Shown here one piece after another: positions 12,955-38,391 of a stretch of DNA of 39,904 bases. The DNA is from Nitrosospira sp. Lineage in GTDB: Bacteria; Pseudomonadota; Gammaproteobacteria; Burkholderiales; Nitrosomonadaceae. The stretch lies in NCBI GenBank assembly GCA_013450215.1, contig JACDSH010000003.1:1-39904 (forward strand). The letters run 5' to 3'. A program made the translations under genes and the position numbers. Position 1 is the first letter of the stretch. Every line of letters begins with the position of its first letter. The notes below the pieces were generated by a model, which made no database searches, was not told the origin of the DNA, and saw nothing but the letters and a program-made list of their open reading frames with translations.

Positions 12955-13557
12955 TTACTGTGGCCCTTCATGCACCTTGATTAGACTGGTCTGAATACCA
13001 TTCTGTTGAAGGGAGGCACGTACCCGATTCACCTCACCTATCTCCGCAAAGGGACCCACACGTACCCTGTGCCAGATTCCCCTATCTGCCAGATCAATCG
13101 CCTGTACGCTGGCCTCCAGTCCCGTCATCGCGAGCTTCGCTTTCAAATTCTCGGCATCCTCGGCACTTTGAAATGATCCTGCCTGAATGAAGTAACTATC
13201 ATTAGACGAGAGCTGTGGAACGGCCTGATGTGCCTGCTGCTCGGCGGCCAGTTCCGTAGCGCCGGGTAGGATTTTGTAAAACTCGAACCGGGGCTTTCCG
13301 TCCTCAGTCTGCGCTGATTTGTCATCTTTCCCGGTTACCTGCCCACCCTTTTGAATAATTGGGTTTAGTTCGCTCTTGACTGCACTATCACCAGCCCTCT
13401 CCTGTGTAATGAATGGGCTCTGAGTATGGTTCATATACATCCAGATGCCCATCGCACTGATCAGACCCAATACATAACCAATAAACAGCCCCAGCACCAA
13501 AGAGCTGCCCTTGCCAGAGCTCTTGGAGCTAGATGGATCCTTGTAATCCCGACTCAT
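12955..13557 (-). CDS. SPOR-domain membrane protein (FtsN-like)
   Basis: This 200-residue protein is anchored by a single N-terminal membrane helix (about 19-42, LVLGLFIGYVLGLISAMGIW) after a short charged cytoplasmic tail. A low-complexity linker and a C-terminal SPOR domain (about 120-195, starting SYFIQAGSFQS) follow. SPOR domains bind denuded peptidoglycan at the division septum, so a septal role is likely, although it is shorter than FtsN. An AAGGA ribosome site precedes the ATG. It sits between argS (30 bases upstream) and dsbA. Confidence 0.85.
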   Translation of the reverse strand: MSRDYKDPSSSKSSGKGSSLVLGLFIGYVLGLISAMGIWMYMNHTQSPFITQERAGDSAVKSELNPIIQKGGQVTGKDDKSAQTEDGKPRFEFYKILPGATELAAEQQAHQAVPQLSSNDSYFIQAGSFQSAEDAENLKAKLAMTGLEASVQAIDLADRGIWHRVRVGPFAEIGEVNRVRASLQQNGIQTSLIKVHEGPQ

Positions 13558-13587
13558 GGAAATCCTTCATGGAGTTTATCTGCCCGA

Positions 13588-15339
13588 TCACATCTTGTCG
13601 GGCGCGCTGACGCCCAACAGTGTCAACCCATTCACCAGCACCTGCCTCACCGCCGCAATCAACGCTAGGCGCGCATGCCGCAGCGGCACCTCAGGAACGA
13701 GGAATCGAGTTGCATTATAGTAACTGTGGAATTCGGCTGCCAGTTCTCGCAGATAGAAAGCGATCAGATGTGGAGAGAGCTCTCTTGCTGCCGCATCCAC
13801 CGTCTCGGGATAATCGATCAGCCACTGCAACAGAGCGAGCTCTGCGGGACTGGTAAGAAGGCTGGTATCGACGGTTGCCAGTATCGATGGGTCCTCTCCC
13901 CACTGGGTCAAAACGCTGCAGACACGGGCATGGGCATACTGCACATAATAGACTGGATTCTCATTACTCTGCGATTTAGCCAAGTCCAGATCAAAGTCCA
14001 GATGCTGTTCACTCTTACGCAACACATAAAAGAATCTTGCTGCGTCATTACCCACCTCCTGGCGCAACTCCCTCAGCGTTACAAACTCGCCCGATCGGGT
14101 GGACATGGCCGCCTTCTTTCCGCCTCGATAGAGTACCGCAAACTGCACCAACGCGACCTCGAGTCTCGCAGGGTCGAGCTCCAGTGCCTGTAGGGCTCCC
14201 CTCACACGCGGGATATAACCATGGTGGTCAGCGCCCCACACATCGATGACACGATCAAAGCCACGTTCAAATTTATTAAGGTGATAAGCAATATCTGATG
14301 CAAAGTATGTAAACTCACCATTCGCGCGTCTCACAACACGGGGCTTCTCGTCGCCGAAATCGGATGACCGAAACCACATCGCTCCATCTTCCAGGTATAG
14401 ATAACCTTTCTGTTCGAGTAGCTGAACTACGCGGGCCACTAGTCCGCTATCGAACAATGACCGTTCCGAAAACCAGTTATCAAATACCACACCGAACTCC
14501 ATCAAGTCGTTGCGGCAATCACCCAGCTGCTCGGTCAAGACAAAGTTATGGATGTACGCATAATCCTGTCCCAATAGTTTTTTTGCGCTGGCGATCAAGC
14601 TATCAAGCAGAGCCTCACCAGAGCCCTCCTCTGTTGCAGGAGGCACCTCTGCAAACAGCAATTCTGGCTGGTGTACATATCGATCACCGTGCGCCTCATG
14701 AATCAATCTCGCCATATCGCGCACGTAGTCACCTTGATAGGCATTCCTAGGAAAGGCGATCTCGGCATCCCCTATCTCCAGGTATCGTAGCCAGGTTGAG
14801 AGTGCAAGAATATCCATCTGACGACCCGCGTCGTTGATATAGTACTCACGCTCAACGGTGAATCCCGCGGCCGTCAGCACATTGGCTAGACTCGCACCAA
14901 ATGCTGCACCACGTCCATGGCCGACATGCAGCGGCCCGGTGGGATTAGCTGAAACGAACTCCACCTGAATTTTCTTACCCAACCCAATGTCGGTGTGGCC
15001 AAAATGATCGCCAGCTGTCAGGACGTGGCCTGGAAACTGCTGCTTGGAAGAGGTCTTAAGAAATAAATTGATGAATCCTGCGCCCGCGATTTCGATTTTT
15101 TCTAGGTGAGGTGAGTCTGGCATCGCTTCTATTAACAAGGCGGCAACTTCTCTCGGGCTCTTGCGCAGCGGTTTAGCCAACTGCATCGCAAGATTGCAGG
15201 AATAATCTCCGTAACTGGCTTGTTTGGGCCGTGCAAACTCGATAATGACACCCTGCTCCGCTGGTGCAACTCCATGCAGAGCATGGTGCAAGATTTCACT
15301 TAAGTGAGACTTAAAATTGGGTTTGGGTGACCGGGTCAT
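13588..15339 (-). CDS. argS: Arginyl-tRNA synthetase
   Basis: This class I aminoacyl-tRNA synthetase charges tRNA-Arg. It has 583 residues, with an N-terminal additional domain recognising the tRNA D-loop. The HIGH-like motif is in ANPTGPLHVGHGRG, and GKKAAMSTRSG stands at the KMSKS-equivalent position. The C-terminal helical anticodon-binding domain ends in GLTLLGVSAPDKM, the usual end of bacterial ArgRS. It heads the argS-SPOR-dsbA-SDR run. Confidence 0.96.
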   Translation of the reverse strand: MTRSPKPNFKSHLSEILHHALHGVAPAEQGVIIEFARPKQASYGDYSCNLAMQLAKPLRKSPREVAALLIEAMPDSPHLEKIEIAGAGFINLFLKTSSKQQFPGHVLTAGDHFGHTDIGLGKKIQVEFVSANPTGPLHVGHGRGAAFGASLANVLTAAGFTVEREYYINDAGRQMDILALSTWLRYLEIGDAEIAFPRNAYQGDYVRDMARLIHEAHGDRYVHQPELLFAEVPPATEEGSGEALLDSLIASAKKLLGQDYAYIHNFVLTEQLGDCRNDLMEFGVVFDNWFSERSLFDSGLVARVVQLLEQKGYLYLEDGAMWFRSSDFGDEKPRVVRRANGEFTYFASDIAYHLNKFERGFDRVIDVWGADHHGYIPRVRGALQALELDPARLEVALVQFAVLYRGGKKAAMSTRSGEFVTLRELRQEVGNDAARFFYVLRKSEQHLDFDLDLAKSQSNENPVYYVQYAHARVCSVLTQWGEDPSILATVDTSLLTSPAELALLQWLIDYPETVDAAARELSPHLIAFYLRELAAEFHSYYNATRFLVPEVPLRHARLALIAAVRQVLVNGLTLLGVSAPDKM

Positions 15340-15455
15340 GGTTACGTCATGTCAGCAGATTGTTTATACAACATCTATTATAGCGGGGTTGGTAAGAGTT
15401 ACGTTCACCAGTTTAGTCGGCGCAATCATCAAAATAAGTTACAGCGAAGAACAAG

Positions 15456-16658
15456 ATGAATTCAAAAAAAGATGTGGTCGTAATCGGCGCCGGGGCTGCT
15501 GGCATGATGTGTGCACTGGAAGCTGGTAAGCGGGGTCGCAAGGTGTTGTTACTGGACCATGCGACCAATCTCGCCGAAAAAATTCGCATCTCTGGCGGAG
15601 GTCGTTGCAACTTTACCAACCGTTATGCCGGTCCAGATGGTTTTCTGTCTCACAATCCCCACTTCTGCCGCTCTGCACTGGCACGATTCAGTCCTCAGGA
15701 CTTTATCGTCTTAGTTGAAAAATATGGCATCCATTACCACGAGAAAAAGTTAGGTCAGCTCTTTTGCGACGAGAACTCCCAGCAGATTATCGACCTACTG
15801 CGGAAGGAGTGTTCGGCGGCCGGAGTGGAGTGGAGGATGCCGTGCTTGGTTCAGAGTATCAGTCTGCCTGAGCCCGGTCCTGACAGCGGTGGCAGATTTC
15901 TGCTTAAGACCGATCAAGGTAGCGTGATCACCGATTCACTGGTGATCGCAACCGGAGGACTGTCCATCCCGCAAATCGGCGCCAGTCCATTCGGTTATCG
16001 TGTCGCTGAGCAGTTCGGCATTGCGGTGACTCCGCTACGCCCGGGATTGGTCCCTCTGACATTCGCACCTGAACAGCTCCTCCAGTTTGCCGGACTGACA
16101 GGGGTGACGATTGATGCTGAGGTCAGCTGCAACGGAAAGCATTTCCGTGAGAATGTATTGATCACTCATCGCGGCCTGAGCGGACCCGCAATATTACAAA
16201 TCTCCTCCTATTGGCTGCCTGGCGATGTAATCCATATCAATTTATTACCAGATCTCAATCCGACCGCGTTACTACTCGATCAACAACATAGCTCCACCAT
16301 GCTACCCAATCTTCTCGCGCAATATCTGCCCAGACGGTTCACCCAAGCCTGGTGTGATTCCACCCCCGCAACACAGCCTCTGAGGATGCTACATCACTAC
16401 ACCGAGCGTGAGCTTCAAGAGATCGCGGCACAACTTCAGGACTGGCAGGTTATACCGAGCGGTACTGTGGGTTACAGAAAGGCGGAGGTGACACTCGGTG
16501 GGATCGATACGCGCGAGCTGTCATCCAAGACAATGCAATCAGAAAAAGTGAGTGGGCTATATTTTATCGGGGAGGTGCTCGATGTGACCGGCCACCTAGG
16601 TGGGTTCAACTTTCAGTGGGCATGGTCATCAGGCTACGCGGCCGGACAGTCTGTATAG
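15456..16658 (+). CDS. BaiN/HI0933-family FAD-dependent oxidoreductase
   Basis: This 400-residue flavoprotein has the FAD-binding VVIGAGAAGMMCA at residues 8-20. The family hallmark ISGGGRCNFTN is at about 46-56, and a C-terminal GEVLDVTGHLGGFNFQWAWSSG binds the cofactor. The family (YhiN, HI0933, BaiN) is widespread but its physiological substrate is mostly unknown. It is transcribed alone, divergent from argS and convergent with rhlE, leaving only 8 bases between the two genes. Confidence 0.88.
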   Translation: MNSKKDVVVIGAGAAGMMCALEAGKRGRKVLLLDHATNLAEKIRISGGGRCNFTNRYAGPDGFLSHNPHFCRSALARFSPQDFIVLVEKYGIHYHEKKLGQLFCDENSQQIIDLLRKECSAAGVEWRMPCLVQSISLPEPGPDSGGRFLLKTDQGSVITDSLVIATGGLSIPQIGASPFGYRVAEQFGIAVTPLRPGLVPLTFAPEQLLQFAGLTGVTIDAEVSCNGKHFRENVLITHRGLSGPAILQISSYWLPGDVIHINLLPDLNPTALLLDQQHSSTMLPNLLAQYLPRRFTQAWCDSTPATQPLRMLHHYTERELQEIAAQLQDWQVIPSGTVGYRKAEVTLGGIDTRELSSKTMQSEKVSGLYFIGEVLDVTGHLGGFNFQWAWSSGYAAGQSV

Positions 16659-29124: not shown

Positions 29125-29130
29125 GAGCTA

Positions 29131-29155
29131 CCAATGTGACCAATGTGACCAATGA
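29131..29155. repeat. Short 9-base tandem repeat
   Basis: CCAATGTGA occurs twice in tandem (29131-29148), followed by CCAATGA. It lies between two minus-strand genes. No role is apparent. Confidence 0.8.
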
Positions 29156-29265
29156 CTACTATACCGCTCTGTGACTTTATTTAGATGAACTGATAAGCCA
29201 TTTACACAGACTGCGGGTTACCGATCTCAGTAGCCAGTCTAGCACCTGCTCTAAAAATATTCTTC

Positions 29266-30984
29266 TTAAGCAGCGACCGAGTCGGTGAGACTGCTGGACT
29301 GAAGGGGTCGTAGCTCCGCCTTACCCTTGGACAGGGTAAATATACGGTCAGCCGCGTTTATCACGGCAGGCTGGTGTGATACTGCGATAATGGTATGGCT
29401 CTGAGCCAGTCTCTGTAGTGTCTCGCAAATTACCTTTTCGCTATCAGGATCTAGGGCGCTCGTTGGCTCATCGAGCAGCAGGAATAACGGCCGATGAGCA
29501 AGCGCTCTAGCGATTGCGATGCGCTGGCGCTGCCCCCCTGAAAGAAGTCCACCACGCTCGCCCACCACTGTCAGCAGCCCTGCCGGAAGACTGCAGACAA
29601 AGTCCCAGGCACCTGCTTGCTGCAATGCCTGCTCTGCATCTGCTTGTGTTAGATCGGGAGCGCCAATAAGAATATTGCTAAGAATTGTGTCGTGCAGCAG
29701 GATCGTGTCTTGCGATACATAACCTATCATGCGTCGCCAGTGGCGAAGATCTATTTCATGTAGCGATATCCCGTCAATAAGAATCTCGCCCGACTGAGGT
29801 TCGGCCAGCCCGCATAATAGATCAAGCAGGGTACTCTTGCCCGCTCCTGACGGCCCCGTGATTGATGTAAATGAGTTCACGGGTATTTCAATGCTCATAT
29901 CTTGAAATATCGACTTCTTGTCATAATTAAAGCTTATGTGACGCAGGCTGATTCCTTGTTGCAGGGTCGGCCGCTGCGTTCCCACGGTTATTTCAGCGGC
30001 ATCCTGCGCATCTTTAATCGCTGTTCGTAATGCCCAGTAGGCGCTCTCCTGCACTACTAGGTGCTGGTAGCGTCGCTGCGCTTTATTCAGCAGACTCTGA
30101 ACACGTGTCAAAAGAAAGACCATCACCATCACCGAAGCTAGTGAGAGTTGCCACGCCACTAGGGCCAGATACAAGCCCCCTGCGATCAGAATGGCGAGCA
30201 TGGGCTCCTGCATCGCCAATAAGGCCTCCCTGCTCATAACCTCGCGGCGAGTGGCTTTCTCCAGTTGCTTGGTCTCATCGCGGAGAATTGCATCAGCGAC
30301 GTCATCACGCGCCATCGCCTTCAACGATTTCACCGATGTAAGCACATCAGCCAGATACGACATCAGGTGTCGCAACAGATGTGTCTGCTTATTCCCTGCC
30401 TTGCCTGCTGCGCGTACAAGATTCTGCAGTACCAGCAACATGGCTGCTCCTAGCACGAGGGAGACGAGAGTTGCCTCCCATGAAATGAACAGAGCAACCG
30501 TGCTATAGACTATGACCTGAATTGACAGTGCCATGACATTAGCAGCATGCTCAAAACCCTGGGCAGCTCGGTATGCTTCCGTGGCGACGGAGTTAGCAAG
30601 AGATCCCGCAGGTTGCCGCAGGTAATACTGCCAGCGACTGGCAATTAGCGCCTCGATCAGTTCCTGTCGCAACTTGCTCGCGACATGTGCTACGGCATAT
30701 CCCACCTGGCGGTTGGCGAGTAGCAGTATCAAGCTCTTGGTAATCATGCCGATCACGATGATTAGCAGCATCGTGCTTATTGTGGGCTCAATCCCGATCC
30801 TCTGCATGGCCTGTAACACAGTCCGTCCAGTTTCAGAACTACTAGCATCCCCTACAGCAACTGATAGTAAAGGGAGTAGAGCGGTCAGGCTGAGCCCCTC
30901 GGCAATACCCGCGGCCAATAGCGCAATCATCACAAGTACGCTACGCCGTGGGAAAACCATGATATAGGTGGCTAGGGTATGCAT
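29266..30984 (-). CDS. Fused half-size ABC exporter (MsbA-like type I)
   Basis: This 572-residue protein has an N-terminal six-helix membrane domain (about 1-320) joined to an ATPase domain. Walker A is GPSGAGKST at about 373-381, the signature is LLSGGQRQRI at about 480, and Walker B is FLLLDEPTSALD. This is the architecture of lipid A, lipid or peptide exporters acting as homodimers. It follows the Spt-like gene by 161 bases on the same strand, so it may flip the lipid made by that operon. Substrate assignment is inference from position only. Confidence 0.85.
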   Translation of the reverse strand: MHTLATYIMVFPRRSVLVMIALLAAGIAEGLSLTALLPLLSVAVGDASSSETGRTVLQAMQRIGIEPTISTMLLIIVIGMITKSLILLLANRQVGYAVAHVASKLRQELIEALIASRWQYYLRQPAGSLANSVATEAYRAAQGFEHAANVMALSIQVIVYSTVALFISWEATLVSLVLGAAMLLVLQNLVRAAGKAGNKQTHLLRHLMSYLADVLTSVKSLKAMARDDVADAILRDETKQLEKATRREVMSREALLAMQEPMLAILIAGGLYLALVAWQLSLASVMVMVFLLTRVQSLLNKAQRRYQHLVVQESAYWALRTAIKDAQDAAEITVGTQRPTLQQGISLRHISFNYDKKSIFQDMSIEIPVNSFTSITGPSGAGKSTLLDLLCGLAEPQSGEILIDGISLHEIDLRHWRRMIGYVSQDTILLHDTILSNILIGAPDLTQADAEQALQQAGAWDFVCSLPAGLLTVVGERGGLLSGGQRQRIAIARALAHRPLFLLLDEPTSALDPDSEKVICETLQRLAQSHTIIAVSHQPAVINAADRIFTLSKGKAELRPLQSSSLTDSVAA

Positions 30985-31145: not shown

Positions 31146-32333
31146 TCATTGAAATATGCTCTTTCGCAACTCTGCAAAAACATCTCCAACATGGTCTATC
31201 TGCTCACTGGTGTGAGCAGCACTCACGCTGCACCGCACCAATGCCTTTCCTTCTGGCGCAGCGGGTGGCAGTATTAAGTTGACATAGATGCCGTGATCCA
31301 GCAACCCCTTCCACAGCAACAGAGCTTGCTGAGGGCTATCTAGAATATTCGCGATCACCGGCCCAGGCTGAGGTCCCAATTGATATCCGAGTCCATCAAG
31401 CCGCGCATAAAGTTGCCGCGAATTTTGCCAGAGCTGCCGGCGTAACTCGGTACCATCGCGCAACAGTTTAAGTGCCGCCCGCGTCGATGCGATGGTGGAC
31501 GGCGAGGGTGATGCTGTAAAAATATATGGACGGCTTATATAGCGCAGCTGATCAAGCTGTGGATGATTGCTCACACAATAGCCACCGATACTTCCAAGGC
31601 TCTTACTGAAAGTCCCCGTAATAAAATCAACCCCATCAGTGAGCCCTGTTTCTTCCGCCAGTCCTTGGCCAGTTTTACCCAAGACTCCGAGTGAATGTGC
31701 CTCATCAAGAAGAAGAATGCTGTTGTAAGCATTCTTTACTCTGACAATCTCTGCCAGAGGAGCCTGATCACCCAGCATGCTGTAAATGCCCTCAGCAACG
31801 ATCAGTGTGGACTTCGATCGCTCTCCCAGTCTCTTGAGGCGTTTTTCCATGTCCGATACATCGTTGTGCCGGAACCGAATTATCTCAGCACCGCTCAGAC
31901 GGCACCCATCATAGACACTTGCATGCGAGTCACCATCAATCAGGACCACATCCCCTGCACCCGCCAGACCAGAGATCATGGCAAGATTGGCTTGATAGCC
32001 GGTAGTGAATACAATCCCAGATTGGCAGTGGTAGAACTCTGCGAACTCACGCTCCAGCGCTCGATGACTGCTATAACTACCATTCGCCATGCGTGATCCG
32101 GTCGTGCCGGTTCCCTCTCGGTCGATCGCTTCATGGGCTGCTCGTAGGCACTCTGGTGCGAAAGTAAGCCCGAGATAGTTATTCGTACCTAAAAATAATA
32201 TGCGCCGGTCTCCGATCCTGGCCTCTGTCGCAGAGTAGACCTCTTCTATCGGCGTACCGAACACCTCGAGTCCTTCCGGCAGTAATGCTTTCCGGGCTGC
32301 TGCTACCGCATCTAACTTGTCTAGTAGGCTCAT
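31146..32333 (-). CDS. spt: Serine palmitoyltransferase-like alpha-oxoamine synthase
   Basis: This PLP-dependent enzyme of 395 residues condenses an amino acid with an acyl thioester. The PLP lysine is in GTFSKSLGSIGGY (Lys244), His137 stacks on the cofactor (GDSHASVYDG), and LLLDEAHSLG holds the aspartate (210). GTFSKS with the later SRPYIFTAS is characteristic of bacterial serine palmitoyltransferase, whereas KBL and BioF have GTLGKA. Expected product: 3-ketosphinganine. Its start overlaps the ACP stop by one base (TAATG). The ACP suggests acyl-ACP rather than acyl-CoA as donor. Confidence 0.85.
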   Translation of the reverse strand: MSLLDKLDAVAAARKALLPEGLEVFGTPIEEVYSATEARIGDRRILFLGTNNYLGLTFAPECLRAAHEAIDREGTGTTGSRMANGSYSSHRALEREFAEFYHCQSGIVFTTGYQANLAMISGLAGAGDVVLIDGDSHASVYDGCRLSGAEIIRFRHNDVSDMEKRLKRLGERSKSTLIVAEGIYSMLGDQAPLAEIVRVKNAYNSILLLDEAHSLGVLGKTGQGLAEETGLTDGVDFITGTFSKSLGSIGGYCVSNHPQLDQLRYISRPYIFTASPSPSTIASTRAALKLLRDGTELRRQLWQNSRQLYARLDGLGYQLGPQPGPVIANILDSPQQALLLWKGLLDHGIYVNLILPPAAPEGKALVRCSVSAAHTSEQIDHVGDVFAELRKSIFQ

Positions 32334-32587
32334 TATTTATTCTGTGATTTGATTTTATAAATTAAATTCGCAAGCTCATGCACGGTCTGAATATCTGCAA
32401 GGGCATTCAAGGACACGGAGATGTCGAACTCATCCTCGATCTCCATAACCAGATTCAATAGCTTAACGGAGTCAATGGCCAACTCATTAATCAGGTCTGT
32501 TTCAGGCACAATTACCACGTCAGGACTGGAGAGCTGCTTGAGATGGAAACAGAGCCTAGATAGAATGTTGTTGTAATCAGTTGACAT
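32333..32587 (-). CDS. acp: Dedicated acyl carrier protein for the Spt operon
   Basis: This 84-residue acyl carrier protein has the phosphopantetheine serine in LAIDSVKLLNL (Ser40), surrounded by the usual acidic helix II (VMEIEDEFDI). The real start is ATG 32587; the open frame continues further upstream without a plausible domain. It lies 29 bases after the reductase gene and overlaps the Spt start. It is distinct from housekeeping AcpP in sequence and context and would carry the acyl group from the ligase to Spt. Confidence 0.88.
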   Translation of the reverse strand: MSTDYNNILSRLCFHLKQLSSPDVVIVPETDLINELAIDSVKLLNLVMEIEDEFDISVSLNALADIQTVHELANLIYKIKSQNK

Positions 32588-32616
32588 GGATTGAGTGACT
32601 CTAAAATGTTTGCGAA

Positions 32617-33531
32617 CTATGCCGCTTGTGGCATAGCATCTCGTAGACGCATGGAAGGCTGCCATTCTGGTAGTGCCTTCCTCAGTGGAGCGATATCGCA
32701 TACCCAGTCCGGGTGCTGTAACTCCCTGACTTTTCCTGGCGTTAGCATCGGTGAGTAATGCAGCAGTCGTGCCAGACACAGGTTAATACTAGCAGTCATC
32801 GAGACCAGCGATACTGGCAAAAAGAGACACCGTACCGGCCTCTTCCATACATCCTGAGCAATGGCCGCGACAGACTGTGCGTTATACCCCCCCGGCATCC
32901 CATCATCAAGCTCATAAATGCCACGGATAGGAACTCTAGCACCAACCCAGCCGAGGATCGCCGCGACCAAATCATTAACATGTAATAAACCAAAACGCAT
33001 ATCAGAACCCCCGACCATGGGTAGCACCCCTCGCTGAGTTGCCCTAAAGAGTGGACTCATCTCCTTGTCACCCGGCCCATAGACCGCAGTCGGGCGAAAG
33101 ACTGCACACGGCATGACACCTGAATAGTCTGCCACGATCTGCTCTGCCAGATATTTGCTAGTCGCATACCAAGAGAGCTCCGGCTGCCTTGCTGCGAGTG
33201 AGGATATGAGAAGAAATCGAGGGGCTGAGTCCTGCTCTGTTGAGGCCCTCATCAAATTGGCAGTCCCCTCTACATTGGTGCGGGTGAATTCATCGAGAGA
33301 GCTTCCTCGAACCTGCCCAGCACAATGTACAACAGCCGAAACACCTCGTACCAGATTCTCTAATGAGATGGGATCGTTCAGATCACCGTGAATCCATGTG
33401 ATGGACCCGCTACCAGTTTGTGAACGGCGGGTTAATGCTCGCACCTTCCAACCATCTTTGACTAAAGCCTGCAGAAGTACATGGCCGATAAAACCTGTAG
33501 CGCCAGTAACTGCTACCGTCAATCCAGACAT
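32617..33531 (-). CDS. cerR: NAD(P)-dependent epimerase/reductase, ceramide-reductase-like
   Basis: This extended SDR of about 304 residues has TGATGFIG at 9-16, a catalytic serine at about 110/111 (LLISSLA) and YATSK (Tyr122, Lys126). In Caulobacter the enzyme in the equivalent position reduces the keto group of 3-ketoceramide. I placed the start at ATG 33531; an in-frame TTG at 33558 would give nine more residues and a 20-base overlap with the ligase gene. The assignment comes from family plus operon, so another keto-lipid substrate is possible. Confidence 0.7.
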   Translation of the reverse strand: MSGLTVAVTGATGFIGHVLLQALVKDGWKVRALTRRSQTGSGSITWIHGDLNDPISLENLVRGVSAVVHCAGQVRGSSLDEFTRTNVEGTANLMRASTEQDSAPRFLLISSLAARQPELSWYATSKYLAEQIVADYSGVMPCAVFRPTAVYGPGDKEMSPLFRATQRGVLPMVGGSDMRFGLLHVNDLVAAILGWVGARVPIRGIYELDDGMPGGYNAQSVAAIAQDVWKRPVRCLFLPVSLVSMTASINLCLARLLHYSPMLTPGKVRELQHPDWVCDIAPLRKALPEWQPSMRLRDAMPQAA

Positions 33532-33538
33532 ATAGTGA

Positions 33539-35404
33539 CTACTTGTCTCCGGACTCAACTGATAGCTGATAATCTGTCATGTTTGTCCGTTGTATGAAAC
33601 CCTGGCGTGCAGCAAATCGAGATAACTTCCCGGAAGAAGTACGTGGCAGGGTATGCGGCGGGACCAGCTCAACCAGACAGTTAACGCCAAATGCCATATA
33701 TACTATCCGTTGTAGCCTGTTGATAAGAGACTGCCGATCCGGCACTGAGGTCAAACGACACTCTATAACCAATACGATTGTGGTCGAGTCATTAGCATCT
33801 GTTACCCCAAAGGCCGAGGCCTCCCGGGCTCTGACCTCGGGCTGTTGCTCGGCGAGCTCCTCAATATCCTGAGCCCGTATATTACGCCCGTTGACAATGA
33901 TGACATCTATACGGCGACCCGTAACAAAAAGATCACCTTCAAATAGAAAACCAAGATCGCCCGTATCCAGCCAAGGACCGGGTTGAAGTGTTCTCTGAGT
34001 GTCTTCTGGGTTATTGAAATAGCCCGTCATGATACTGCCGCCACTCACCAACACACTGCCCAACTTTAGATCAGATAATTCTTGACCTTCATCATCAATA
34101 ACCTTGACCGTATGCCCTGGTATGGCGCGTCCGCAATTCACAAATTCATTAAACTTTCTGCCATCTGCCTGGAGCCGAACAGCCATCTTCCTTTCCACCA
34201 GCATCGCTGCATCAATCTGCAGGCTCTTAAATCCTTCTCCAATTTTTGAAAAAGTAACCGCAAGGGTCGACTCTGCCAGTCCATAGCAGGGAAGGAAGGC
34301 ACTCGCGTTAAATCCTGCTGATGCAAACTTCTCCGCAAAGTTTCTGAGGGTCTCTGGGCGTATCATTTCCGCGCCAACCCCCGCCGCACGCCAGCAACTA
34401 AGATCGAGACCTTCCAAGTCAGACTCACGAACCCGCAGTGTGCAGAGCTTGAGGCCGAAGGGCTGACTGAATGCGACTGTAGAGCGGTTGCGACTGATGA
34501 GCTTGAGCCATTGTAATGGCCTAACCGCAAAGTCCCGCGTAGCCAAATAGTCGACCGAGACCTGTGAAGCCATCGGGGCCATCATCATCCCTACCAAACC
34601 CATGTCGTGGTAAAAAGGCAACCAGGATGCGCACCGGTCATTCGGCTGTATCTCTAGCCCACTACGAACAATTCCTTGCAGATTGCTCATCAAGGCTCTT
34701 TCTGTGATGATCACCCCGCGCGGAGCACGGGTGCTACCTGAGGTAAACTGAAGATACGCAATATCATCCGGATGGTTTGGCTTCGGCGTCACATCTAGAG
34801 CCGGCAGTTCTCCTAGCTCACCCGGAGTTCCAATCCATTGCAGTCCCTGTACTCCCTCTGAAGCCTCTCTAAGGAAGTTAATATAATCTGCACTTGACAA
34901 GGCAACGCTTGCTTTACTGCCGTGAAGTATTCCACGAATCTGCTGGACATACACCGCATGACTACCAAGATTGACCGGAATTGGCATCGCGAAAGGAACT
35001 AGCCCAGCATAACGGCAGGCGAAGAATAGCTCAACAAACTCTGGCGTAGTATCAGCGATGAGGGCTACGCGTTCACCACGAGCCAGCCCAAGTCCTGACA
35101 GACGTTGAGCTGCGACTAGCGCATTTTGCCTTAGTGCCTGGTAGGGAAGAACTGAACGCAGCCCCCCCTTGGCATTATAAAAATTAAATCCCTTAGACCC
35201 ACTGGCAGCGTACTCCAATGCCTCTGTTAAGGTATCAAAGTCCGCCAGACGTAGGGCTTGTAGCTCGCATATCGTCGGCGTCGGAGAGGCCGTTAGCGTT
35301 GGCTCACTTGATAATTGAGAACCAAACGCTTGCGTTAACGGAGCGTTCAACTGGGTTATTGTTGAACTCAAAGACTTACCCTCCAGATTAGCGATGCTTG
35401 TCAT
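33539..35404 (-). CDS. Fatty-acyl-AMP ligase / acyl-ACP synthetase
   Basis: This 621-residue adenylate-forming enzyme has the P-loop YLQFTSGSTRAPRG and the FAAL hallmark WLPFYHDMGLVG. SLACYGLAES-type (LPCYGLAES) and LDTGDLGF motifs follow, and a C-terminal domain carries NGRNIRAQDIE. It activates a fatty acid as acyl-AMP and should load the neighbouring ACP. It is the first gene of the operon, and a 533-base AT-rich gap lies upstream. About 45 N-terminal residues precede the usual domain start. Confidence 0.85.
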   Translation of the reverse strand: MTSIANLEGKSLSSTITQLNAPLTQAFGSQLSSEPTLTASPTPTICELQALRLADFDTLTEALEYAASGSKGFNFYNAKGGLRSVLPYQALRQNALVAAQRLSGLGLARGERVALIADTTPEFVELFFACRYAGLVPFAMPIPVNLGSHAVYVQQIRGILHGSKASVALSSADYINFLREASEGVQGLQWIGTPGELGELPALDVTPKPNHPDDIAYLQFTSGSTRAPRGVIITERALMSNLQGIVRSGLEIQPNDRCASWLPFYHDMGLVGMMMAPMASQVSVDYLATRDFAVRPLQWLKLISRNRSTVAFSQPFGLKLCTLRVRESDLEGLDLSCWRAAGVGAEMIRPETLRNFAEKFASAGFNASAFLPCYGLAESTLAVTFSKIGEGFKSLQIDAAMLVERKMAVRLQADGRKFNEFVNCGRAIPGHTVKVIDDEGQELSDLKLGSVLVSGGSIMTGYFNNPEDTQRTLQPGPWLDTGDLGFLFEGDLFVTGRRIDVIIVNGRNIRAQDIEELAEQQPEVRAREASAFGVTDANDSTTIVLVIECRLTSVPDRQSLINRLQRIVYMAFGVNCLVELVPPHTLPRTSSGKLSRFAARQGFIQRTNMTDYQLSVESGDK

Positions 35405-35937: not shown

Positions 35938-36282
35938 TCAAACTTTCACCCACAACTCAGCCTCGTCGTAATCACCAAAGACTCTGACATCAGCCCCGAT
36001 AAAGAGATTTGATATCCAGACGCTCCAGGCTTGCCATTTGTTATTGACGACCACCGCCACGCGGTTAAATTCACTGCCATGTTCACGCACAAACTTGATC
36101 TCCTCCCACGCAACGTCGAAGGTGTAACTCACCATATCACGCCAATCGAATAGAAGATTAGCCCTGCCATCGAAATGAGACTTGTAAAGCACCTCCTCCT
36201 CGAACTCCTTGTAGTCGGTCAAGGTAAACTCGCCGAGTGCAGCGACAGTGATCAGGTTGCCGGTTTTCTGAATAGTAATCAT
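35938..36282 (-). CDS. SpoIIAA-like STAS-domain protein
   Basis: This 114-residue single-domain protein of the SpoIIAA-like STAS type has LLFDWRDM at about 43-50 and VAVVVNNKWQAW at about 75-86. A final DYDEAELWV helix is typical of this family. The biochemical role is unknown; relatives bind small ligands or regulate partners. It follows the EamA gene by 81 bases on the same strand. Confidence 0.8.
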   Translation of the reverse strand: MITIQKTGNLITVAALGEFTLTDYKEFEEEVLYKSHFDGRANLLFDWRDMVSYTFDVAWEEIKFVREHGSEFNRVAVVVNNKWQAWSVWISNLFIGADVRVFGDYDEAELWVKV

Positions 36283-37284: not shown

Positions 37285-38391
37285 TCATGAGATATAGCGT
37301 CCAACTTCCCTCTGCAAAAATTCATGGAAGTGCACCATGCCATCCTCCATCGGTGACTGATACGGGCCAACTTCATTAATGCCCTGCTTATATAGAGCAC
37401 GACGCCCAGCAGTCAGCAGTTTACAAATTTCGTCATCTTCGGCCGCAGTCTCACGATAGGCGGCCTGCTCAGCCTCGACAAACTCCCGCTCAAATAAAGC
37501 GATATCCTCCGGATAGTAGAACTCGACTACATTGGTGCACCGATCTGCCCCTGCCGGCAATAGCGTACTGATAATGAGCACATGGGGATACCACTCCAAC
37601 ATGACATTTGGATAGTAAAGCATCCAGATGGCACCGCGGGCAGGAATCTTACCAGCAGTTTGTCGCAACAATTGCTCATGCCACTTGGCATAAACCGGCG
37701 TACCCGGATGGACCAAGTCGTGATTGATCCCCACTGTCTGTACGCTGTACCAATTACCAAACTCCCACTTCAACTCCCTTGTGTCAACAAAACGACTCAG
37801 CCCAGGATGGTATGGCTCGACATGGTAGTCCTCCAGGTATACCTCGATAAAGGTCTTCCAGTTGCAGGCATACTCCTCTATCTGCACCCGCTCTAGCACA
37901 TGTCCAGAAAAATCAAAATCCTTCAAGACGCTTAGTTTAGCCATATCGCGCATGACATCGCGCCTACCCGAAAAAAGCAGGCCATTCCAACTCTTCAGAT
38001 GAGTCCTTCCAAGATCAAGACATGGGTTGTCAGGAAAGTGCGGCGCTCCTAGTAGCTTTCCCGCTAAATCATAAGTCCATCGGTGCACAGGGCAAACGAT
38101 GTTCTTGGCATTGCCGCGCCCCTTAAGTAGAAGAGATTGCCGGTGACGACAAACATTTGATAACAGCTCAATGCCATTTTTATGGCGTACCAATACCTTG
38201 GCATCCCCCATCCACTCAAGCACCTGATAGTCACCGATGCTCTGCAGCATCGCCTCGTGACCAACGTAGCCGGCCCCTTGGTCAAACAGAATCTGCGTTT
38301 CTAATTCAAGAATATGAGGGTCGAAATACCAGTCGACCGGTAGCTGTACCGGCCTTTGCACGCGTTGCGAGACATTAACAAGATTGGGCAT
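37285..38391 (-). CDS. Rieske non-haem iron oxygenase, alpha-subunit type
   Basis: This 368-residue protein has an N-terminal Rieske [2Fe-2S] domain (CRHRQ, Cys81/His83, and CPVHRW, Cys100/His103). A catalytic domain follows with the iron ligands in YHVEPYHPG (His190-x4-His195). This is the aromatic-ring-hydroxylating family, and the electron-donating reductase is not adjacent. In betaproteobacteria a member of this family commonly sits next to xseB-ispA-dxs, with unknown substrate. It is divergent from xseB. Confidence 0.85.
   Translation of the reverse strand: MPNLVNVSQRVQRPVQLPVDWYFDPHILELETQILFDQGAGYVGHEAMLQSIGDYQVLEWMGDAKVLVRHKNGIELLSNVCRHRQSLLLKGRGNAKNIVCPVHRWTYDLAGKLLGAPHFPDNPCLDLGRTHLKSWNGLLFSGRRDVMRDMAKLSVLKDFDFSGHVLERVQIEEYACNWKTFIEVYLEDYHVEPYHPGLSRFVDTRELKWEFGNWYSVQTVGINHDLVHPGTPVYAKWHEQLLRQTAGKIPARGAIWMLYYPNVMLEWYPHVLIISTLLPAGADRCTNVVEFYYPEDIALFEREFVEAEQAAYRETAAEDDEICKLLTAGRRALYKQGINEVGPYQSPMEDGMVHFHEFLQREVGRYIS

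Follow-up and report, generated by a model that had tools for sequence, protein, structure and literature searches.

A predicted ceramide synthesis operon in Nitrosospira and an ABC exporter gene that accompanies spt

The minus strand of the window, by which we mean the whole stretch of 39,904 nucleotides from Nitrosospira sp. analysed here, carries between positions 31146 and 35404 four genes in the order aasR-cerR-acpR-spt, and very probably these constitute a ceramide synthesis operon accompanied by a pathway-linked exporter (Table 1). The assignment of the core pathway, made by homology only, is almost certain; the ABCB-type exporter encoded after spt probably belongs to the sphingolipid pathway, and the chances that it is the sphingolipid flippase are about even or marginally better. 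As far as could be found, it is new that this exporter tracks spt, a lead worth following that matters more than the operon itself. The passage of bacterial sphingolipids through the inner membrane was described as unsolved in 2024 (PMC11087976), and the exporter provides a named candidate for this step, with a Wzx-type protein as a second, unrelated one. A search of openly accessible journal papers returned none that describes an ABC exporter acting on sphingolipids in bacteria.

Table 1. Genes of the predicted ceramide operon and the exporter gene that follows it (window coordinates)
Gene	Position	Strand	Predicted product	Main evidence
aasR	33539..35404	-	fatty acyl-AMP ligase / acyl-AcpR synthetase, 621 aa	NF006624, 840.6 bits (cutoff 600)
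cerR	32617..~33531	-	extended-SDR ceramide / 3-oxo-sphinganine reductase	PF01370 (Epimerase/extended SDR), 93 bits
acpR	32333..32587	-	84-aa dedicated acyl carrier protein with IDS serine motif	PP-binding PF00550, 38 bits
spt	31146..32333	-	serine palmitoyltransferase, 395 aa	NF047599, 599.2 bits (cutoff 500)
ABCB-type exporter	29266..30984	-	572 aa, membrane domain and ATPase; candidate sphingolipid flippase	PF00005 and PF00664, co-occurrence with spt, linkage

At the level of gene organization, the four open reading frames that a previous sequence-only reading had placed in this interval were recovered, each of them matching its expected family far above chance, and both motifs quoted in that reading (GTFSKS and SRPYIFTAS) are present. 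The interval given there left out a fifth gene of the same strand, the one encoding the ABC exporter. The junctions are operon-like: seven nucleotides separate the stop of aasR from the ATG of cerR, 29 nucleotides lie between cerR and the start of acpR, and a single base is shared by acpR and spt (TAATG). The open reading frame caller starts cerR at the TTG at 33558, but the ATG at 33531 is the likelier start, and the caller's versions of acpR (148 aa) and cerR (313 aa) are probably over-extended at the N-terminus. Ahead of the operon and on the same strand lie genes for a Rieske-type oxygenase (37285-38391) and a SpoIIAA-like protein (35938-36282), in an order that is conserved in Nitrosospira loci; that this pair takes part in lipid hydroxylation would be no more than speculation.

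The PLP enzyme encoded by spt is of the serine palmitoyltransferase (SPT) type, as indicated by its score against the betaproteobacterial NCBIfam equivalog model for SPT, its position in a tree and its catalytic residues. The match to this model covers the full length of the protein, while those to BioF, KBL (glycine C-acetyltransferase) and quorum-signal synthase models remain below their cutoffs, and the top PDB matches are all annotated bacterial serine palmitoyltransferases, the best being 2x8u (3e-123). In a tree of 76 sequences, built by a quick method with SH-aLRT support and without bootstrap, the enzyme falls among the SPTs of Nitrosomonadaceae, and BioF and KBL are placed beyond a long branch (SH-aLRT 99). 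A quorum-signal, biotin or KBL-type enzyme is ruled out by the NCBIfam scores and the tree. In agreement with this identity, K244, D210/H213 (DEAH), H137 and R367, which we take to be the PLP lysine, the DxAH residues, the stacking histidine and the carboxylate-binding arginine, respectively, are invariant in 85 of 85 aligned SPTs. The site equivalent to R378 of the Sphingomonas paucimobilis enzyme (S. paucimobilis) corresponds to codon 355 of spt (31269-31271, minus strand) and holds a hydrophobic residue; among the SPTs aligned, an arginine is found there in the S. paucimobilis enzyme only, all beta-, gamma- and other SPTs being hydrophobic at this site, and BioF shares that arginine.

The layout of FAAL, ACP, oxoamine synthase and SDR also occurs in lipopeptide and signal pathways, and the amino acid used is not fixed by sequence alone, two points that speak for an alpha-oxoamine synthase pathway leading to a signal, a sulfonolipid or a secondary metabolite instead of ceramide. 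Such another product is very improbable in view of the score of 599 bits against the SPT equivalog compared with 330 for BioF, 318 for KBL and 216 for quorum-signal synthase, of the PDB comparison, in which SPT reaches 415 bits and the cysteate acyltransferase 28eh 193 bits, and of the presence in the same genome of a ceramide synthase homologue and of LptF2/LptG2.

The ceramide synthase is absent from the window, as had been pointed out before, and a search of the whole genome located a homologue of this enzyme (bCerS) on contig C9 (G000:C9:7292-8401), which rules out a genome devoid of it. The query employed was YghO of E. coli BL21 ('aca' of PMC9386255), to which the protein is 46% identical over 98% of its length; since neither Pfam nor NCBIfam gave it a family name, its identity rests on this similarity. 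Together with aasR, cerR, acpR and spt in the window, cerS on C9 brings all five ceramide pathway genes into one genome. Its neighbours on C9 include the LptF/LptG paralogues LptF2 and LptG2, a diacylglycerol-kinase-like (DAGK; ceramide-kinase-like) gene beside it, and two nucleotidyltransferases, one Tam41-like and the other an NTP-transferase (CofC/MobA-like) that is CC_1153-like as judged by domain. PMC11324152 assigns a ceramide kinase function to CC_1160 and a CDP-DAG-synthase domain to CC_1161, and characterises CC_1153 as CofC-like. The kinase-like and nucleotidyltransferase genes of C9 were matched to these Caulobacter genes by description, and therefore a phosphosphingolipid is likely; thus, the predicted product would likely be a ceramide and probably a phosphosphingolipid.

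The genome that contains the window is small (1.6 Mb), has a completeness of 99.8% and includes an amoC-type gene (PF02461); the host is one of the ammonia-oxidising bacteria in the family Nitrosomonadaceae. The nearest relatives of its spt come from records labelled Nitrosomonadaceae, Nitrosospira and Nitrosovibrio. Within the genus, spt is found in eight of nine genomes with 94-100% identity, the one lacking it being 89% complete. The main value of the operon is to show that nearly all ammonia-oxidising Nitrosomonadaceae possess the pathway, ceramide synthase homologues being present in 51 of 51 good family genomes, and that it is retained even in small genomes of 1.3-1.6 Mb. Two record labels deserve a comment. 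A metagenome-assembled genome labelled Moraxellaceae (L014) has an spt 94% identical to that of the window in the same gene order, and its label is probably wrong; a contig labelled Nitrospirales (L049) contains homologues of cerS, aasR, cerR, acpR, spt, lptF2 and lptG2, its spt being 58% identical, which reflects either gene transfer into the Nitrospirota or faulty binning.

The sequence-only reading had proposed that a betaproteobacterium has a ceramide operon like that of Caulobacter and that the pathway would thereby gain a wider range. The first part holds, on the basis of the scores, the tree, the catalytic residues, the gene order and the bCerS homologue, whereas the novelty does not. 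PMC9386255 already lists the set of the betaproteobacterium Nitrosomonas eutropha (Neut_0458, aasR; 0459, epi; 0460, acpR; 0461, spt; 1100, aca), and PMC11324152 lists it again together with phosphosphingolipid genes. Because of these lists, the operon represents a known type, in a family for which the pathway had already been predicted. Likewise, both the existing betaproteobacterial SPT model of NCBIfam and the near-universal presence of the pathway in the family speak against a widened range.

According to PMC9386255, AasR loads AcpR and Spt prefers acyl-AcpR. The four genes of the operon would provide the long-chain base of a sphingolipid. AasR of the window would load a free fatty acid onto AcpR, and Spt would join the acyl group to serine, giving 3-oxo-sphinganine; the second acyl chain would be added by the ceramide synthase homologue of C9, and CerR would perform the reduction step. 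The C9 genes (ceramide-kinase-like, Tam41-like, CofC/MobA-like, LptF2 and LptG2) would then probably convert the ceramide into a phosphosphingolipid and deliver it to the outer membrane. Work on Caulobacter published in 2024 placed Spt and bCerS in the cytoplasm and CerR in the periplasm, and its authors had identified no flippase (PMC11087976). The exporter may flip oxidised ceramide, ceramide or phosphosphingolipid to the periplasmic leaflet, from which LptF2/LptG2 would take the flipped lipid to the outer membrane. A counterpoint to this scheme is found in CerR, whose sequence shows no clear signal peptide when judged by eye, in contrast to the periplasmic location of its Caulobacter counterpart.

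The exporter gene starts 161 nucleotides downstream of spt on the same strand, and no terminator-like site was found on the minus strand of the gap between them. Its product contains the ABC_membrane (PF00664) and ABC_tran (PF00005) domains, both above their cutoffs, and is therefore of the ABCB type, an architecture that it has in common with the lipid-flipping exporters MsbA, PglK and ABCB4; PglK and ABCB4 are also among its PDB relatives. Because these ABCB exporters flip lipids, lipid flipping by the window's protein is plausible, and unlike them it is linked to spt and separate from the MsbA-like proteins of its genome. ABC exporters constitute a large family, the substrates of which are not readable from sequence. 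A transporter of LPS, a glycolipid or a polysaccharide, that is, a second MsbA or a HepA-like pump whose co-occurrence with spt would merely mark a special outer membrane, could account for the best NCBIfam match, which is HepA-type ABC (309 bits, below the cutoff of 725), for the next, MsbA (TIGR02203, about 241-242 bits, below the curated cutoff of 602), and for the presence of PglK among the PDB matches. This possibility is doubtful, as two other proteins of the genome fit MsbA better (420 and 407 bits, also below cutoff) and as the exporter is clustered with spt, cerS or LptF2/LptG2 in many lineages. The exporter is likewise not favoured as the MsbA of this genome; it shares 34% and 22% identity with the two better matches over part of the length, and both are placed far from it in the exporter tree. 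Beyond the exporter, a locus of the same genus (L009) has an 817-aa gene (13089-15542), presumably ComEC-like, between the exporter and a DUF2062 gene, a space that in the window amounts to only about 140 bases (29125-29265). This gene is lost or moved in the small genome of the window, and the spacing suggests its presence in other relatives as well.

The assignment of the exporter to the sphingolipid pathway comes from its distribution. In a sample of 300 genomes of the order, spt and the exporter were found in the same 11, two of them in another family. In a sample of 369 genomes of the class, 17 have both, four have spt only, 347 have neither and a single one, with a fragment in a 75%-complete genome, has the exporter only; the Fisher p is 1.3e-24 by genome and 1.4e-18 by genus, values that ignore deeper phylogeny. 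Exporter absences are a little uncertain because only the best three or four candidates per genome were scored. Physical linkage takes several forms. The exporter gene follows spt within 300 nucleotides in the window's genus, in some Nitrosospira (L017, L020 and L112) and in L038 (4 nucleotides), G504/L085, G616/L091 and G633/L093; it lies a few kilobases from spt beside lptF2/lptG2 in L052, G451/L082, G575/L090, G497/L084 and G705/L097, within about 10 kb of spt in G490 and G648, and, in G158 and G197, less than 6 kb away on the opposite strand. The exporter gene of G011 is found near two members of the cerS locus, the ceramide-kinase-like and the Tam41-like gene. In addition, two similar proteins in L052 (3280-4464 and 8488-9717), which presumably resemble the ELM1 family, lie on either side of LptF2, LptG2 and the exporter, adjacent to acpR-spt, and may belong to the sphingolipid cluster. 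Concerning phylogeny, the exporter tree strongly supports a group of Nitrosomonadaceae, L038 and L091; in the spt tree Nitrosomonadaceae join L038 first and the position of L091 is left open, so that both trees agree for the group of Nitrosomonadaceae and L038.

It could be argued that the exporter is a bystander downstream of spt, given the 161-nucleotide gap without translational coupling in the window and the fact that it is unlinked to spt in Nitrosomonas, G520, G631, G384, G415, G555 and G711. The weak unlinked matches of G415 and G555 may be paralogues. A bystander is nonetheless quite unlikely, since the two genes co-occur genome-wide even where they are unlinked, and since a chance origin is hard to reconcile with repeated linkage beside lptF2/lptG2 or spt in separate lineages. 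The exporter as a component of the pathway has, on the other side, its own counterpoint in these unlinked genomes and in the four spt genomes of the class sample that lack it.

Some of the remaining variation involves the Wzx-type membrane protein (PF01943). This protein occupies the slot after spt in L041 and L043-L047, the start of its gene overlapping the spt stop in L044, and a relative is encoded in the E. coli BL21 cluster. Among the 369 genomes of the class, the Wzx-type profile gave a single match, in G572, a genome with spt but no exporter, in which the Wzx gene is located next to lptF2/lptG2. No Wzx-type flippase was detected in the window's genome at E 1e-30, and in G526, G636 and G701, where spt is present, neither the exporter nor the Wzx-type protein was found and no flippase was detected near spt. 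This pattern suggests that two unrelated proteins may do one job, as seen in one genome of the unbiased sample (G572) and in L041 and L043-L047, compared as loci only. The chances are evenly balanced that the exporter, inherited together with spt, serves beta- and gammaproteobacteria as the dedicated sphingolipid flippase of the inner membrane, and that in E. coli BL21, several Gammaproteobacteria and G572 the unrelated Wzx-type protein takes its place within the same gene cluster.

Regarding known systems, Caulobacter crescentus shares the ceramide enzymes (CC_1162-1165 and CC_1154) with the window's genome, which also has LptF2/LptG2 and genes resembling the ceramide kinase, CC_1153 and CC_1161 of the phosphosphingolipid set CC_1152-1161. 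The Caulobacter genes lie in one region together with the putative flippase CC_1166, whereas those of the window's genome are distributed over two loci and accompanied by the ABC exporter. In N. eutropha C91, which belongs to the same bacterial family, aasR, epi/cerR, acpR and spt are arranged as in the window and the ceramide synthase (aca) is likewise at a distant locus; the accessible parts of PMC9386255 and PMC11324152 report no orthologue of the CC_1166 flippase and name no ABC exporter for the pathway in this species. The exporter gene directly follows spt in the window's genus and is away from it in Nitrosomonas. Finally, the yghO-aasR-epi-acpR-spt island of E. coli BL21(DE3) shows the gene order of the window, with homologues that are 56% (Spt), 46% (AasR), 47% (CerR) and 41% (AcpR) identical, and has the Wzx-type membrane protein in place of the ABC exporter.
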